Assembly: GCA_951812755.1 (NCBI GenBank)
Contig: OX638329.1
Location: 2,651,339 to 2,715,338 of the forward strand
Source of the DNA: an uncultured Latescibacterota bacterium
Lineage (GTDB): Bacteria > Latescibacterota > UBA2968
Direction: 5' to 3'
DNA: 64,000 nt
Both the position numbers and the translations under genes were made by a program. How positions within the stretch are numbered: the first letter of the stretch is position 1; the number at the start of each line of letters is the position of its first letter. This document shows, in pieces, positions 19,978 through 57,643 of the stretch. Below the pieces are notes generated by a model. It ran no database searches and had not been told where the DNA came from. It saw only the letters and a program-made list of their open reading frames with translations.

Positions 19978-20231
19978 ACTGATATTACGCACAAGCACAC
20001 TATAATGCGCCTGTCATTCTGAGCGCAGCGGAGTCGAAGGAGCGGGGTACAACTGGCCGGTGAACGAGCCTGAAAAGCGGCTCGTTGTACACCATCCTCA
20101 GGCCAGTTCATCTACTGCTTCAACGGTGTGCATGGGTAACAGATGCTTCGTCAGCCTATCGGGTGTTGGGCGCAGAAGATTCATTGCGCTCGCCTCAGCA
20201 TGACAAAACCACAGATCTGCGTAACGTCAGT
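19978..20231. repeat. 254-bp palindromic element with ACTGAYRTTACGCA inverted ends
   Basis: The ends ACTGATATTACGCA and TGCGTAACGTCAGT are inverted copies with two mismatches. Inside are TGTCATTCTGAGCGCAGCGG and its partial inverse, a second palindromic block around GGGGTACAACTGGCC, and no reading frame of note. A 158-bp relative with the same ends lies at 49235. The rest of this 378-base gap is A+T-rich ATTTTTAATTTTTAATT repeats; I see no gene. Confidence 0.7.
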
Positions 20232-20353
20232 TAGGAATTAAGAATTGTCCCCGCTCTCAATAAACTGCTACGCCGTTGTGCGCTGTTCCGTAATTTTTAA
20301 TTTATTGCTGCTTTCCAATTTTTAATTTTTAATTCGTAATTTTTAATTGACCA

Positions 20354-24304: not shown

Positions 24305-24321
24305 TAGGGTTTCTCCTTTTA

Positions 24322-24505
24322 GAGACTGTTTTAAAACTCATTTTGCCCCTTCTCAGCTATGCGCTATTGCCCTGTCATTCTGAGCGGAGCGTAGCGGAGT
24401 CGAAGAATCTCTTACCAACTCAGGTGGAAAAGATGCTTCGGCTACGCTCAGCATGACAAAACGCCGGACATGCGTAACATCAGGTATTAATTTTAAAACA
24501 GCTTC
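24322..24505. mobile_element. 184-bp MITE, copy 1, with TTA target duplication
   Basis: The ends GAGACTGTTTTAAAA and (inverted) GAAGCTGTTTTAAAA match at 13 of 15 positions and are flanked by TTA on both sides (24319-24321 and 24506-24508). The inside carries the TGTCATTCTGAGCGGAGCG palindrome and the half-end GCGTAACATCAG of another repeat family. A copy with about five mismatches lies at 36577-36760. It has no coding capacity; the TNA duplication and GAG start resemble IS5-family (IS427/IS1031-type) elements, which could mobilise it. Confidence 0.88.
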
Positions 24506-24582
24506 TTAGTGTTGGGGTGTGGTTGATTGCGTGCGGGGTGACGCGAGATATGGAATTTATTTCGTCAGCTTTTAGACAATAG

Positions 24583-31471: not shown

Positions 31472-33934
31472 ATGCGTTCTCAAATTACATATTTGATCTG
31501 TGCAATCTTCTTTGGCCTTGTTGCGGAAAGCGCGTGGGGGCAAGAGACGGATTATCGCACGCTGTGGGTGCGGGGCGATTATGCCGAGGCGGTGAAAGTG
31601 CTCGAGCGCTTGTCTTATCACCCGCGGTCAACGCGACAGGATTATGCCGAATTGCTGGTGTTGACGGGGCGCGTTGATGAGGCGATCGCACAATTGGAAG
31701 GGCTTTCGGCAAGTTCGCCCGATGTGGCTGTGCGCCTGGCTGAGTTGTATCGCATGCGCGGTCGGATGGGCGATTATGGCATGACATTGATGAAGGCCGA
31801 GCACCAGGTGCGCTTGTTGTCGGAATATCGCCCTGATATCGATGATTTTCTCGCGGCTGCGCGGCTGCGCGAGTTAAAGGGCGAAGATCCAAAATCGCTG
31901 TTGCGATTTTACAATTTGATGGCTCAGGCATTTCCCAATAGTGTGCCTGTGTTTATTGCGGCGGGTAAGCTATCTCTGAGCAAACGCGCTTTTGATGTGG
32001 CGGCAGAGAAATACGGCGCTGCGCTCGCGTTGGATCCCGAAAATCAGGAGGCTTTGGCGGGGTTGATGTGGTGTTATTATCACGCGGGCGATGATCGGGT
32101 TTTGGAAGTGATGGCGCAACTTTTCGCCCTCAATCCGAATCATCTGGAGGTCCTTCGGTTGCAAGCCGAGCAATTGCTGGATCGCGACGAGCCACATGCC
32201 GCGCTTGCGGTGCTGGATTCTATCTTGTCTGTTAATCCAAATCACCTGAAAGCACTGGGGTTAAAGGCGGCGGCATTTTTTTTGTTGGATGATTCAGAGG
32301 CGATGAAAAAAATGCAGGAACGGGCATTGGCTTTTAATGGATATTTTTCAGGTGCTTTTCGCATTCCCGGGCGCATTGCGTCTCGGCAATACCGGTTTGA
32401 AGAAGGGCGTGTTTTTCAAGGGCGTGCGTTGGAGATTGATGATGAGGATGTCGAGGCGCGCTTGCTCTTGGCGTATGATTTGTTGCGGTTGGGTAAAGAT
32501 GGTGAGGCTCGGCGCGAGTTGGAGCGGGTTTTTGCGGCTGATCCATATAGCGTGCGGGCGTATAATTTGCTCGAGGCTGCCGATGCGATCGATGGTTTTG
32601 AGACCATATCGCGCGGTATTTTCAAGTTGCAATTGCCCGGGCAAGAAGCCGAGGTAATGTCCGATGGGTTATTGAAGTTGCTCAATGAAGCGGCTTTGTA
32701 TTATCAGAGAAAATATAATATTGAGTTACATACGCCCGTGGTGGTGCAGGTGTTTGACGACCACGATGTGTTTATGGTGCGGTCGGTTGGTCTGCCGGGC
32801 AATGCGGGGCATTTGGGCATTTGTTTTGGGCGGTTGGTTACAATGGATTCTCCTCGGGCACGGCCCCCCGGTACGATGAACTGGCAACAGGTGTTGTGGC
32901 ACGAGTTTGTGCATGTGATTACGTTGCAAAAGACCCACAATCGCATGCCGCGCTGGTTGTCGGAGGGGATTTCGGTCTATGAAGAGACGCAAAAGGATGT
33001 GTCTTGGGGGCAGCGGCTGAGCCCGGATTTTAAGCATATTTTGGATGGCGAAGGGTTTCCCAGTGTAGGCGATCTCGGGCGGTTTTTTACGGATCCAGAA
33101 ACGCCGATGCATCTGATGTATGGGTATTTTGTATCGGGCGAATTTGTGGCTTTCTACGTGAATCACTACGGCCACGATGCACTGGTGACAGCACTCGACC
33201 GCATTGGTGATGGTATGGAGGCTGTTGAGGCGTTGATATCGGCCAGCGGTGTTTCCGCCCGTCTTGTGGATGAGCGGTTTATGGAATATCTGGGCAATCG
33301 ATGCTCGCCCCTCAAGGCGTTGTCCAAAAACTCGGAGTTTCGCCAGGCGTTAGATGCTGGAAAAGAGGCGGTTGAGGCAAAGAACTGGGCGGATGCAGAG
33401 CGGTTTTTCTTGAAAGCACATGCTCTGTATCCAGACTATGCTGCGGAAGATGCGCCTTTGAGGCTATGGGTGGATGCCGGGATGGTGCGCGGGGATCCGA
33501 AGTGGCACCGCAAAGCATTAAAAAAGCTCGTTGAATGGGATGCGACGGCGCCTGAAGCCTGTCTGGTGTTGAGCGGATTTTATGTGAAGGATAAAGACTG
33601 GACGGCTGCGCTTGCGGTGCTGGATCGAGCATTGGCGGTGCGTCCGTTTCAGGTTGAGATATTGGCGCAAAGAGCAGAGGTACACGAGATGCTGGCGGAT
33701 TGGGATGCGGCGATTGCCGATTGGCGTCGGCTGATTTATCTGGATGTACCGGGCCGGGCCGCGCATCGACTCAATCTGGCGGAGGCGCTCGCTAAAAAGG
33801 GCGAGGTCAAGGCTGCAAAAGCCGAGGTGCTCGCGCTGTTGGAAACAATGCCGCATTTTTGGGATGCACAACAGTTGTTGTTGGAATTGGTGGATGCAAA
33901 GTATCCGCAGATGAACGCAGATGAACGCAGATGA
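31472..33934 (+). CDS. Exported TPR protein with a gluzincin (peptidase MA-like) zinc protease domain
   Basis: A signal peptide ends near AWGQE. Residues 30-390 are TPR units. The centre carries HEFVHVITL (His477, Glu478, His481) and the third ligand Glu498 in WLSEGISVYEE, the PF13485-type peptidase MA pattern. The C-terminal 200 residues are again TPR. The protein is probably periplasmic and may bind and cut partner proteins. Its last residues (QMNADERR) and its stop codon are encoded by a CGCAGATGAA array. It is the first gene before DUF4159 and MoxR, and a shared function is likely but unproven. Confidence 0.82.
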   Translation: MRSQITYLICAIFFGLVAESAWGQETDYRTLWVRGDYAEAVKVLERLSYHPRSTRQDYAELLVLTGRVDEAIAQLEGLSASSPDVAVRLAELYRMRGRMGDYGMTLMKAEHQVRLLSEYRPDIDDFLAAARLRELKGEDPKSLLRFYNLMAQAFPNSVPVFIAAGKLSLSKRAFDVAAEKYGAALALDPENQEALAGLMWCYYHAGDDRVLEVMAQLFALNPNHLEVLRLQAEQLLDRDEPHAALAVLDSILSVNPNHLKALGLKAAAFFLLDDSEAMKKMQERALAFNGYFSGAFRIPGRIASRQYRFEEGRVFQGRALEIDDEDVEARLLLAYDLLRLGKDGEARRELERVFAADPYSVRAYNLLEAADAIDGFETISRGIFKLQLPGQEAEVMSDGLLKLLNEAALYYQRKYNIELHTPVVVQVFDDHDVFMVRSVGLPGNAGHLGICFGRLVTMDSPRARPPGTMNWQQVLWHEFVHVITLQKTHNRMPRWLSEGISVYEETQKDVSWGQRLSPDFKHILDGEGFPSVGDLGRFFTDPETPMHLMYGYFVSGEFVAFYVNHYGHDALVTALDRIGDGMEAVEALISASGVSARLVDERFMEYLGNRCSPLKALSKNSEFRQALDAGKEAVEAKNWADAERFFLKAHALYPDYAAEDAPLRLWVDAGMVRGDPKWHRKALKKLVEWDATAPEACLVLSGFYVKDKDWTAALAVLDRALAVRPFQVEILAQRAEVHEMLADWDAAIADWRRLIYLDVPGRAAHRLNLAEALAKKGEVKAAKAEVLALLETMPHFWDAQQLLLELVDAKYPQMNADERR

Positions 33935-33979
33935 ACGCAGATGAAAAATCAAATGTAGGGGCGGGTTTTTAACCCGTCC
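33903..33979. repeat. 10-bp CGCAGATGAA tandem array plus GTAGGGGCGGG hairpin
   Basis: Four copies of the 10-base unit begin inside the coding sequence of the TPR gluzincin gene and give it its stop codon. A GGGCGGGTT / AACCCGTCC hairpin follows. The next gene starts 28 bases later. Confidence 0.85.
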
Positions 33980-35925: not shown

Positions 35926-36818
35926 TTGACTGCTAACAAATTCATAAGCCCTGCGGTGCAGGCAATGAACCTTATTCGATATATTGGAGATAGAGTATCG
36001 GAATCAGGGACTCCAGAACTTATTAATATTTATGCAATTCAAGATGCCATTGAGGCACCGAGTGTTGAATTTGCCCTTCAACTCATTGAAGATTTGAAAG
36101 AACGGGGAACTATCATTTATAGTGATTCATCAGTACCTGGTGATATGCTTAGGGAATTCAATCTCAGCCTCAATGGATGGGAGCAGTATGAAGCGGAAAA
36201 ACGTGGTCAGTTCAGTGGTAACTACGGCTTTATCGCCATGCAGTTCAACGACGACAATCTTGACGCCTTTATCCGAGACGTTGTGAAACCAGCGGTGAAA
36301 GACGGTATCGGCTATGAACTTGTCGATCTGCGCGATGTTTCGCAGGCTGGGATTATAGATAACATTATGCGTCCAGATTAGAGATGCAGCATTTGTGATT
36401 GCTGAACTCTCTCATGACAATTCTGGTGCGTATTGGGAGGCTGGTTATGCGGAGGGACTGGGAAAGCCTGTCATTTATATCTGTGAACAAAAGAAGTTCG
36501 ATGAAAAAGGCACTCATTTCGATACCAATCACTGCACAACCGTTTTCTGGGACAGAGATAATGACAAGGGTTTTAAGAGACTGTTTTAAAACTCATTTTG
36601 CCCCTTCTCGGCGATGCGCTATTGCCCTGTCATTCTGAGCGGAGCGCAGCGGAGTCGAAGAATCTCTTACCAACTCAGGTGGAAAAGATGCTTCGGCTAC
36701 GCTCAGCATGACAAAACGCCTAACATGCGTAACATCAGGTATTAATTTTAAAACAGCTTCTAAGAAAGAATTGATTGCTACGATTCGCCGGTCTCTTGAC
36801 CTATTCACAACGGATTGA
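35926..36818 (+). pseudogene. Broken NDT/TIR-like nucleotide-binding effector gene: frameshift plus MITE insertion
   Basis: The N-terminal part reads through a winged-helix-like region and into YGFIAMQFNDDN and VDLRDVSQAGIIDNIMR, then stops at 36381. From base 36372 the +1 frame continues as IRDAAFVIAELSHDNSGAYW, EAGYAEGLGKPVIYI and the DKGFKR segment, where the MITE at 36577 adds a stop. After the MITE the frame resumes as KKELIATIRRSLDLFTTD with a stop at 36818. The pattern matches nucleoside deoxyribosyltransferase-like / TIR-like domains, with the conserved Glu in EAGYAEGLGKP. The apparent start is TTG after GAGGAG. Two lesions make it a pseudogene unless the frameshift is a sequencing error. 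Confidence 0.8.
36577..36760. mobile_element. 184-bp MITE, copy 2, with TAA target duplication, inserted in a coding sequence
   Basis: It has the same ends and length as copy 1 at 24322 and about 97 percent identity. It is flanked by TAA at 36574-36576 and 36761-36763. Removing the element and one TAA joins DKGFK directly to KELIATIRRSLDLF in one frame, so the insertion split an intact 3' end. Confidence 0.92.
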
Positions 36819-48491: not shown

Positions 48492-49232
48492 ATGTTGACA
48501 GACAAACAGGTGCAGCAGTTTCGAGAAGATGGGTATCTCGTTTTTAAAGCTCTGATCCAGGGCGAGCGATTGGCCTATTACAAGCAGGTTTTTGATGAGT
48601 TGGTCGCAGAGGGGCGCAAGCTGACCGAGCAGGTGCCGCACTGGACGCTCGAGTTAGACGAGCGAGGTGTGCCCCGGGCGGGTTTGTTGCACAAAATTCA
48701 GGGCGTTTGCGTAGTCGATGCCCGCGTGTTGGAACTGGCGCGCGAGCCAGCGATTTTAGACCGTGTGGCGGCATTGATTGGTGAAAATATCGATTTGTTT
48801 GGCACCAAGTTTTTTCCGAAGTTGCCCAATGGCGGCACGTCAACGGGCTGGCATCAGGACAATTATTATTTTGGGACCGATACAGACCGCATTATCAGTT
48901 GCGGGATTTATCTGGAAGATTCCGATCTGGAGAATGGGTGTTTGCGGGTGGTGCCCGGCAGTCATCGGATGGGCGAGATTGTCGAGCATCGCAGAAATAT
49001 AGGCAGGCACGGCAGTTGGACAGAGGTCAATGAATCGCAGGCTGTTGATTTGATCATTCCCGCTGGTACTGTTGTTCTGTTTTCCGCCAATCTTCTGCAC
49101 GGTTCGAATGACAATCACAGCAATCGCACGCGCTATAGCACGGCATGGCATTATTTGCCAGAAGAACTCAATCCAGAAAAATTTTTAAAGGGGAAATACG
49201 AAGATCGGCATGTGGGACGAATTAAAAATTAG
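48492..49232 (+). CDS. Phytanoyl-CoA dioxygenase (PhyH) family enzyme, second copy
   Basis: The 246-residue protein has the iron site His121-x-Asp123 in GWHQDNYYF and a distal His203 in SANLLHGSNDN, with Arg further on for 2-oxoglutarate. VVPGSH is typical of the family. GGGAGG lies six bases before the ATG. It is 16 bases after the caspase-like gene and probably read from the same transcript, although its function seems unrelated. It differs clearly from the copy at 9733. Confidence 0.88.
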   Translation: MLTDKQVQQFREDGYLVFKALIQGERLAYYKQVFDELVAEGRKLTEQVPHWTLELDERGVPRAGLLHKIQGVCVVDARVLELAREPAILDRVAALIGENIDLFGTKFFPKLPNGGTSTGWHQDNYYFGTDTDRIISCGIYLEDSDLENGCLRVVPGSHRMGEIVEHRRNIGRHGSWTEVNESQAVDLIIPAGTVVLFSANLLHGSNDNHSNRTRYSTAWHYLPEELNPEKFLKGKYEDRHVGRIKN

Positions 49233-49234
49233 GA

Positions 49235-49392
49235 ACTGACGTTACGCAGGTCTGTAGTTTTGTCATGCTGAGCGGAGTGGAACGGAGCCGAAGCATCTAT
49301 TCCACCTGCGTTGGTAGTAGATTTTTCGACTCCGCTGCGCTCCGCTCAAAATGACAGGCCCATTATATTGTGCAGATATGCGTAACATCAGT
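49235..49392. repeat. 158-bp palindromic element with ACTGAYRTTACGCA inverted ends
   Basis: ACTGACGTTACGCA and TGCGTAACATCAGT are inverted with one or two mismatches. The inside is a near-complete palindrome built on TGTCATGCTGAGCGGAG and its inverse. It starts three bases after the dioxygenase stop. The longer relative is at 19978-20231. Confidence 0.75.
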
Positions 49393-52050: not shown

Positions 52051-52083
52051 TCATCTGCGTCTATCTGCGTTCATCTGCGGATG
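52051..52083. repeat. CGCAGATGAA-type array forming the 3' end of the E1-beta gene
   Basis: On the minus strand the E1-beta coding sequence ends ATCATCCGCAGATGA, and the repeat unit supplies the stop codon. It continues with ACGCAGATAGACGCAGATGAG. The arrangement is the same as at 33903. Confidence 0.8.
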
Positions 52084-53063
52084 ATTTTCATGTCCTGCAC
52101 GGCGTGAATCACATCTTCGGGCGTGGGGATTGTGGCGTCTTCGAGGGGTTTGCTAAACGGAACGGGTACGTCCATTGCGCCGAGGCGCGCGATGGGCGCA
52201 TCGATGTAGTCAAAGGCGCCGTTATAGACGATGGAGGCGATTTCCCCTGTGATACCAAAACTTTTATAGCCTTCGTCGATGACGACGGCACGGGTGGTTT
52301 TGATCACGGATTCGATGAGGGTTTCTCTATCGAGCGGAACAAGGGTGCGCGGGTCAACGACTTCTGCGCTGATGCCCTGTTCGGCGAGTGCGTCGGCAGC
52401 CTCAAGGGCGACGTGAACCATGCTCGATGTGGCGATGAGGGTGATATCGTCGCCTTCGCGTTTAATGTCGGCCTGTCCAAAGGGTATGGTGTAGTCTTCT
52501 TCGGTGGGCACCATGCCCTTGAGGGCATACATCATTTTGTCTTCGTAAATGACGACGGGGTTGTCGTCTCTAACGGCGGTTTTGAAGAGGCCCTTGGCGT
52601 CGGCGGGTGTGGAGGGAATGGCGACTTTGAGGCCGGGGATGTGCGCGAGCCAGGCGTGTAAGCTCTGCGAATGCTGCGCGGCAGAGGAGCGTCCCGCGCC
52701 CATTGTGGATCGGATGGTGATGGGCACGATGGCCTGACCGCCGGACATGTATCGCAATTTGGCGGCCTGGTTTACAATCTGGTCCATTGCCAGGGTGATG
52801 AAGTCGCCAAACATAATATCGACAATGGGGCGCGAGCCGGTAAGCGCAGCACCAACGCCGAGGCCGACGAGACCCGCTTCTGCAATGGGTGTGTCGATGA
52901 CGCGATCGTCGCCGAATTCGTCGTGCAGACCCGTGAGTACTTTGAATACGGTGCCCGCTTTGCCGACGTCTTCGCCCATGAGAAAAACCGTGGGGTCGCG
53001 GCGCATTTCTTCGGCGATGGCTTCTTTGACGGCTTCGCCATAAGTCATTTCACGCATAGACAT
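52071..53063 (-). CDS. 2-oxoacid (pyruvate or acetoin) dehydrogenase E1 component, beta subunit
   Basis: The start is the ATG giving MSMREMTYGEA, eight bases after GGAGG; it lies inside the last codons of the alpha gene. The 330-residue protein has the E1-beta transketolase-like pattern: VFLMGEDVGKAGTVFKVL, RVIDTPIAEAGLVGLGVGAA, PIVDIMFGDFITLAMDQI and the C-terminal VVIDEGYKSFGITGEI. It combines with E1-alpha to decarboxylate a 2-oxoacid with thiamine diphosphate and pass the acyl group to E2. E3 is not in the window. Pyruvate and acetoin enzymes cannot be told apart from this alone. Confidence 0.9.
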   Translation of the reverse strand: MSMREMTYGEAVKEAIAEEMRRDPTVFLMGEDVGKAGTVFKVLTGLHDEFGDDRVIDTPIAEAGLVGLGVGAALTGSRPIVDIMFGDFITLAMDQIVNQAAKLRYMSGGQAIVPITIRSTMGAGRSSAAQHSQSLHAWLAHIPGLKVAIPSTPADAKGLFKTAVRDDNPVVIYEDKMMYALKGMVPTEEDYTIPFGQADIKREGDDITLIATSSMVHVALEAADALAEQGISAEVVDPRTLVPLDRETLIESVIKTTRAVVIDEGYKSFGITGEIASIVYNGAFDYIDAPIARLGAMDVPVPFSKPLEDATIPTPEDVIHAVQDMKIIRR

Positions 53064-57478: not shown

Positions 57479-57499
57479 GATTTATCTCCTCTGAAAGCA

Positions 57500-57643
57500 T
57501 CCGCAGATGAACGCAGATGAACGCAGATGAACATAGATGAATGCAGGTTATGGTTTTTTTGAAGTGATCAGCTATCTGTCTGCTTCTCACTTTTGAGTAG
57601 CTGGGACGGGCTGGGACAATTTTTAATTTTTAATTTTTAATTG
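57500..57643. repeat. CGCAGATGAA array plus ATTTTTAATT repeats upstream of the isomerase operon
   Basis: Four copies of the 10-base unit (the last two degenerate) run from 57500 to 57545. Three ATTTTTAA units lie near 57620. The rest of the 211-base gap between the kinase and isomerase genes shows no gene or clear promoter. Confidence 0.75.

Follow-up and report, generated by a model that had tools for sequence, protein, structure and literature searches.

The closest described relatives of the element examined here come from Porphyromonas gingivalis and Acinetobacter. MITEPgRS/MITE464, of P. gingivalis, matches the full-length IS5-family element ISPg4 and has the terminal inverted repeat (TIR) GAGACTGTTGCA; BrickBuilt, from the same species, combines IS5-like ends with 23-nt tandem repeat modules (PMC4596501). 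Within the IS5 family, the IS1031 group displays a TNA target preference (PMC12016507). MITEAba12/ISAba12, from Acinetobacter, generates 9-bp duplications, has been demonstrated to be transcribed, and amounts to 90 copies over about 31 genomes (PMC6382973). Our full-text literature search returned no MITE paper for the Latescibacterota.

The MITE described here, from an uncultured member of that phylum, resembles each of these in part. Its TIR begins GAGACTGTT, as does that of MITEPgRS/MITE464, and it too matches a full-length IS5-family element, a likeness drawn on the ends; ISPg4, however, lies in the same genome as its MITE, whereas no such IS was found in the host genome here. With the IS1031 group it shares the 3-bp TNA duplication and an autonomous partner of about 930 bp with a single ORF, but it is itself a non-coding derivative that has only the terminal 15 bp in common with that partner. 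Like MITEAba12, it is a small, high-identity MITE inserted near genes and presumably mobilized in trans, although its ends and duplications differ, and its copies, about 85, lie in one genome. Like BrickBuilt, it joins IS5-like ends to internal repeated modules, which here are nested and mostly palindromic rather than tandem. The family is genuine, recently active and of IS5 type, and ordinary in kind; it is well documented, through its empty sites and through a partner IS that was found in a relative but not here.

The element upstream of the TlpA-DUF3738 gene

The stretch of DNA analyzed, 64,000 nt and hereafter ‘the window’, belongs to a 6.53-Mb genome assembled as a single contig (G000). 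Two copies of the MITE occur in it (Table 1). The left end of copy 1 reads GAGACTGTTTTAAAA and the right end TTTTAAAACAGCTTC. An earlier note on this DNA had described copy 1 as abutting the ribosome-binding site of the TlpA-DUF3738 gene, flanked by TTA duplications and ending 2 bases from AAAGGAG, and the sequence confirms this: TTA, 184 bp and TTA fill 24319-24508, and on the minus strand the end of the element is followed, 2 bases on, by AAAGGAG and then by the ATG at 24304-24302. Copy 2 is 97.3% identical to copy 1, in agreement with the earlier figure of about 97 percent. It interrupts the last codons, at the 3' end, of an ORF that, with the flanks joined, reads ...DKGFKKELIATIRRSLDLFTTD and then stops; this ORF seems to be frameshifted further upstream as well.

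Table 1. Features of the window that bear on the MITE and its neighboring gene
Feature	Position	Strand	Remark
MITE copy 1, 184 bp	24322..24505	+	one of 40 copies exactly 184 bp long
Target-site duplication TTA, left (TAA on gene strand)	24319..24321	.	same triplet as 24506-24508
Target-site duplication TTA, right	24506..24508	.
Left terminal inverted repeat GAGACTGTTTTAAAA	24322..24336	+
Right terminal inverted repeat GAAGCTGTTTTAAAA (as on minus strand)	24491..24505	-
Inner imperfect palindrome TGTCATTCTGAGCG...CTCAGCATGACA	24373..24458	+	repeat pairs with 20184-20246 and 49222-49363; common to a second repeat family
Shine-Dalgarno-like AAAGGAG of TlpA-DUF3738 gene	24313..24319	-	kept in four orthologues
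TlpA-like thioredoxin + DUF3738 gene, 404 aa	23090..24304	-
MITE copy 2, 184 bp	36577..36760	+	TAA duplications at 36574-36576 and 36761-36763

Folded as RNA, the whole 184-bp element is more stable than shuffled sequences on either strand (z -2.7 on plus, -4.8 on minus), as expected because of its palindromes. Rfam has no match to it. Between 24250 and 24900, a promoter search gave a single weak promoter-like match, which does not exceed the yield from shuffled sequences, and none convincing within the element; terminator-like sites in the same interval were not found.

Copies, ends and target sites

A DNA search of G000 yields at least 40 near-full matches to the MITE, at 94-100% identity. 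The terminal 15-mer, allowing at most one mismatch, occurs 181 times, vs 8 for a reversed control; the ends are not due to chance. The left-end pattern is found at 87 places, 83 of them paired with a right end, so the other copies on which the earlier note's idea of a family depended are not absent; counted by their ends, about 85 related copies are scattered through the genome. The TIRs are 15 bp long, the left being exactly GAGACTGTTTTAAAA in 63 of the 83 paired elements and the right exactly GAAGCTGTTTTAAAA in 76. An identical TNA triplet stands on both sides in 74 (31 TTA, 29 TAA, 10 TGA and 4 TCA), which upholds the TNA target rule first proposed from two copies. The surrounding context is palindromic: C precedes the triplet in 48 of these 74 and G follows it in 50, compared with a background of 18-20% at nearby TNA sites. 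YTNAR fits 59 of the 74 insertion sites, and CTNAG 30; as read from these sites, the target is YTNAR, with CTNAG as its best form.

None of the elements contains a transposase gene, the longest stop-free stretch being 76 codons. They have the properties by which MITEs are recognized: they are short (131-369 bp) and non-coding, possess TIRs and target-site duplications (TSDs) of fixed size, and are cleanly missing from nine loci in relatives. Among named genomes, the exact left-end pattern matches only assemblies of Candidatus Latescibacterota, an FCB-group phylum.

The length is not fixed at 184 bp, as the earlier note had it. That is the main class, with 40 of the 83 paired elements; other lengths are 131, 139, 183, 185, 189, 210, 211, 214, 219, 232, 243, 253, 255, 277 and 369 bp. 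Length varies because modules are nested inside: in alignment, the copies share their left and right parts, and what is added between these consists of further modules, most of them palindromic. The 369-bp copy (G000:C1:6378720, L207) has another repeat unit nested within it, one end of which reads GTGACGTTACGCA. A second repeat family, at window positions 20000-20246 and 49222-49391, has ends like ACTGACGTTACGCA...TGCGTAACGTCAGT, to which the end of the nested unit is similar, and shares the inner TGTCATTCTGAGCG palindrome; a literature search on that inner sequence turned up nothing relevant. Elsewhere (G000:C1:2896483, L054, and L055), the MITE left end surrounds an unrelated GC-rich interior with GGGGAGG and CCCCTCCCC repeats, which suggests that MITE ends may capture other repeats. 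The unpaired terminal matches (L051-L056) were considered as IS and rejected; they are half or divergent elements. A ten-base tandem repeat (CGCAGATGAA units) at window positions 33888-33955, 52051-52091 and 57484-57551 also flanks other MITE copies.

Age and empty sites

Members of the 184-bp class differ from their consensus at 4.3 bases on average, a mean identity of 97.7%. The flanks of 22 insertion sites were joined, with one triplet kept, and searched against the genus. The 30 loci retrieved in this way provided alignments that span ten of the sites; nine of these are clean and one (1347664) is blurred by a local gap. For seven of the nine clean sites, there is at least one relative that has a single TNA there and nothing more; the remaining two (931395 and 1766390) are empty in relatives, but the triplet has drifted. 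The other outcome that would have spoken against the earlier note, empty sites that are not short of one TNA, thus did not arise. Together, the high identity to consensus and the clean empty sites indicate that the family moved recently, as the earlier note had supposed from its two copies. The nine are all other loci; at the window copy, the relatives' homology stops at the MITE edge. One insertion (4347454) is common to G000 and the related genome G006, in which its right end is deleted; the family was thus already active before these two genomes split and went on moving afterward.

A candidate mover in a related genome

MITEs commonly, though not necessarily, have an autonomous partner in the same genome that shares their ends. 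None was found in G000: the IS5-type domains PF13340 and PF13586 have no match there, nor do IS-end DNA and the full protein of the candidate transposase described below. PF01609 has 20 transposase matches in G000, none of which has MITE ends, and those read resemble other DDE groups. Several multi-copy DDE transposases of this genome (L031-L038, L040-L042 and L043-L046; 455, about 645 and 427 aa) likewise lack MITE ends.

A full IS with such ends occurs in G007, a genome of the same genus. This element (L153) is 928 bp long, has ends GAAGCTGTTTTAAAA/GAAGTTGTTTTAAAA and TTA on both sides, and has, over its roughly 930 bp, a single ORF with DUF4096 and DDE domains. Its product matches PF01609, PF13340 and PF13586, and passes the cut-off of the IS5-family model NF033580 (8e-74), which identifies it, by its domains, as an IS5-family DDE transposase. 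It shares about 15 terminal bp with the MITE, and no interior. In G007, an IS or MITE with these 15-bp ends forms the terminus of many contigs, and one full IS copy was assembled. A separate MITE of G007 (L112, L123), 152 bp long, shares the 15-bp ends and is flanked by duplications of TCA or TGA; many of the contigs end inside it. IS5 relatives at class level are more distant, with ends GAAGCTGTCTGAAAA and TNA duplications (TTA, TCA, TAA). The single-contig genome G014, of the same genus, has 45 matches to the IS5-type transposase, mostly fragments or distant, and no match to the MITE.

We consider it very probable that the feature is a non-autonomous, TNA-duplicating MITE of the IS5 family (IS1031 type), moved in trans by a DDE transposase. 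What the sequences themselves show are the ends and duplications, the number of copies (about 85), the empty sites of relatives, and the occurrence in a same-genus genome of a full IS5-family element with matching ends and the same kind of duplication. Because no matching transposase was found in G000, we infer mobilization in trans from the relative: the G000 copies would have been moved by a transposase of the L153 type or by a relative since lost. That the mover was a now-absent relative of the L153 transposase is equally possible, and its gene may have been on an unsequenced plasmid. The family in G000 is apparently orphaned, and its movement there would have stopped for lack of transposase.

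The proposed mechanism is as follows. A DDE transposase acting in trans would recognize the 15-bp ends and insert the MITE at a YTNAR site, CTNAG being best, and repair of the staggered cut would produce the TNA duplication. The position of the window copy corresponds to one at which an upstream ORF of relatives ends in TAA, directly before AAGGAG of the TlpA-DUF3738 gene; the copy could have come there by simple insertion or could mark one edge of a later rearrangement. The duplicated TAA keeps the ribosome-binding site whole, and so leaves the TlpA-DUF3738 coding region unharmed. The predicted effect is that a structured spacer of 184 bp separates the gene from upstream transcription.

The neighborhood of the TlpA-DUF3738 gene

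The 404-aa ORF combines PF00578 (AhpC-TSA/Redoxin) with PF12543 (DUF3738), and its orthologues in four relatives (G005, G006, G010 and G012) are 85-90% identical. In G006 and G012, the stop TAA of another ORF directly precedes AAGGAG of the orthologue, and G010 has nearly the same sequence at this junction; the product of the upstream ORF in G012 has a zinc finger of the zf-HC2 type, which is found in anti-sigma factors. Elsewhere in the window, this upstream operon gene of the relatives was not found. The counterpart in these relatives of the triplet duplicated in G000 is therefore a stop codon on the seam of an operon. Because this stop abuts the Shine-Dalgarno sequence, the gene in G006 and G012 is probably an operon member without a private promoter, sharing that of the upstream genes. 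The earlier note had suggested that an original promoter was moved away by 184 bases; with the gene probably an operon member and the DNA beyond the MITE unrelated to that of relatives, this finds no support.

The gene-side homology to relatives reaches window position 24318 and stops at the MITE. These facts also lend themselves to a different history, in which the window copy is one edge of a rearrangement, an exchange between two MITE copies having severed the TlpA gene from the operon gene that preceded it. We regard this as possible, but less likely than not. The homology ends exactly at the element, G006 and G012 have another ORF directly upstream, and the far-side flank matches none of the four orthologue loci and has no counterpart among the genus matches listed. 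Calculated from how often each TSD triplet occurs, identical TSDs would be expected in about 35% of pairs of unrelated copies, so an exchange between copies could have taken place at this site. On the other hand, the flanking triplets are identical (TTA/TTA), as in simple insertion, and the upstream neighbors differ among the relatives too, so that any rearrangement may predate the MITE.

Stop codons and ribosome-binding sites

On one strand or the other, any TNA triplet reads as a stop codon: TAA and TGA directly, TTA and TCA as complements. An element that duplicates TNA can therefore enter a stop that abuts the following gene's ribosome-binding site without damaging either gene. The family might thus survive preferentially at operon seams, as a mobile operon splitter with its site choice written into the target rule; we think this doubtful, but if true, a structured spacer would be placed between cistrons. 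Insertions were compared with random YTNAR sites of the window (701, of which 107 are non-genic) by the same crude gene caller. Only 19 of 74 insertions lie inside called genes, vs 594 of the 701 sites; among non-genic ones, 13 of 55 insertions and 10 of 107 sites overlap a stop codon (p 0.018). The exact junction of TNA with GGAG occurs at 11 of 87 insertions and 17 of 3187 window TNA sites or, among non-genic positions, at 9 of 62 insertions and 1 of 107 YTNAR sites (p 0.0006), an excess that is a lead, since the tests were chosen after the data had been seen and the control is small (107 sites). Copies in relatives (L074, L082 and L097) also stand at TAA-GGAG.

The same recurrence would be expected if the MITE were kept because it supplies the abutting gene with a promoter or regulatory leader, and there is precedent in MITEs whose outward promoters are transcribed (MITEAba12, PMC6382973). 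We judge this improbable here. Within 25 bp of a start, elements in G000 are turned with the left end toward it at 10:1 (p 0.012), but this orientation bias was dropped because it is reversed (0:5) in the independent copies of relatives. Proximity to a ribosome site, loosely defined, is no greater than at non-genic YTNAR sites (9 of 55 vs 15 of 107, p 0.8), and a general enrichment by such sites was accordingly rejected; the gene caller behind the insertion counts is crude, and the promoter-like match upstream of the TlpA gene is the weak one noted above.

That the copies are not a TIR-based MITE but extragenic palindromes, REP/REPIN-like or other, disseminated by a RAYT or through recombination, is most improbable: an inner palindrome (TGTCATTCTGAGCG...CAGCATGACA) does occur without MITE ends at window 20184-20246 and 49222-49363, and matches to it in relatives cover only about positions 50-177 of the MITE, but REPIN/RAYT elements are marked by having neither TSDs nor IS-type TIRs, and here 83 elements are complete at both ends, 74 are bounded by exact 3-bp duplications, and the empty sites lack exactly the element and one triplet, whereas REP-type repeats are not known to yield TSDs or such empty sites.

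Significance

What the IS5-type MITE offers is a large, clean family in an uncultured phylum, with a probable autonomous partner in a sister species and known empty sites. It provides a natural case in which to follow the fate of a MITE family after loss of its transposase, and in which to ask whether elements that duplicate TNA survive mainly at junctions of stop codon and ribosome-binding site.
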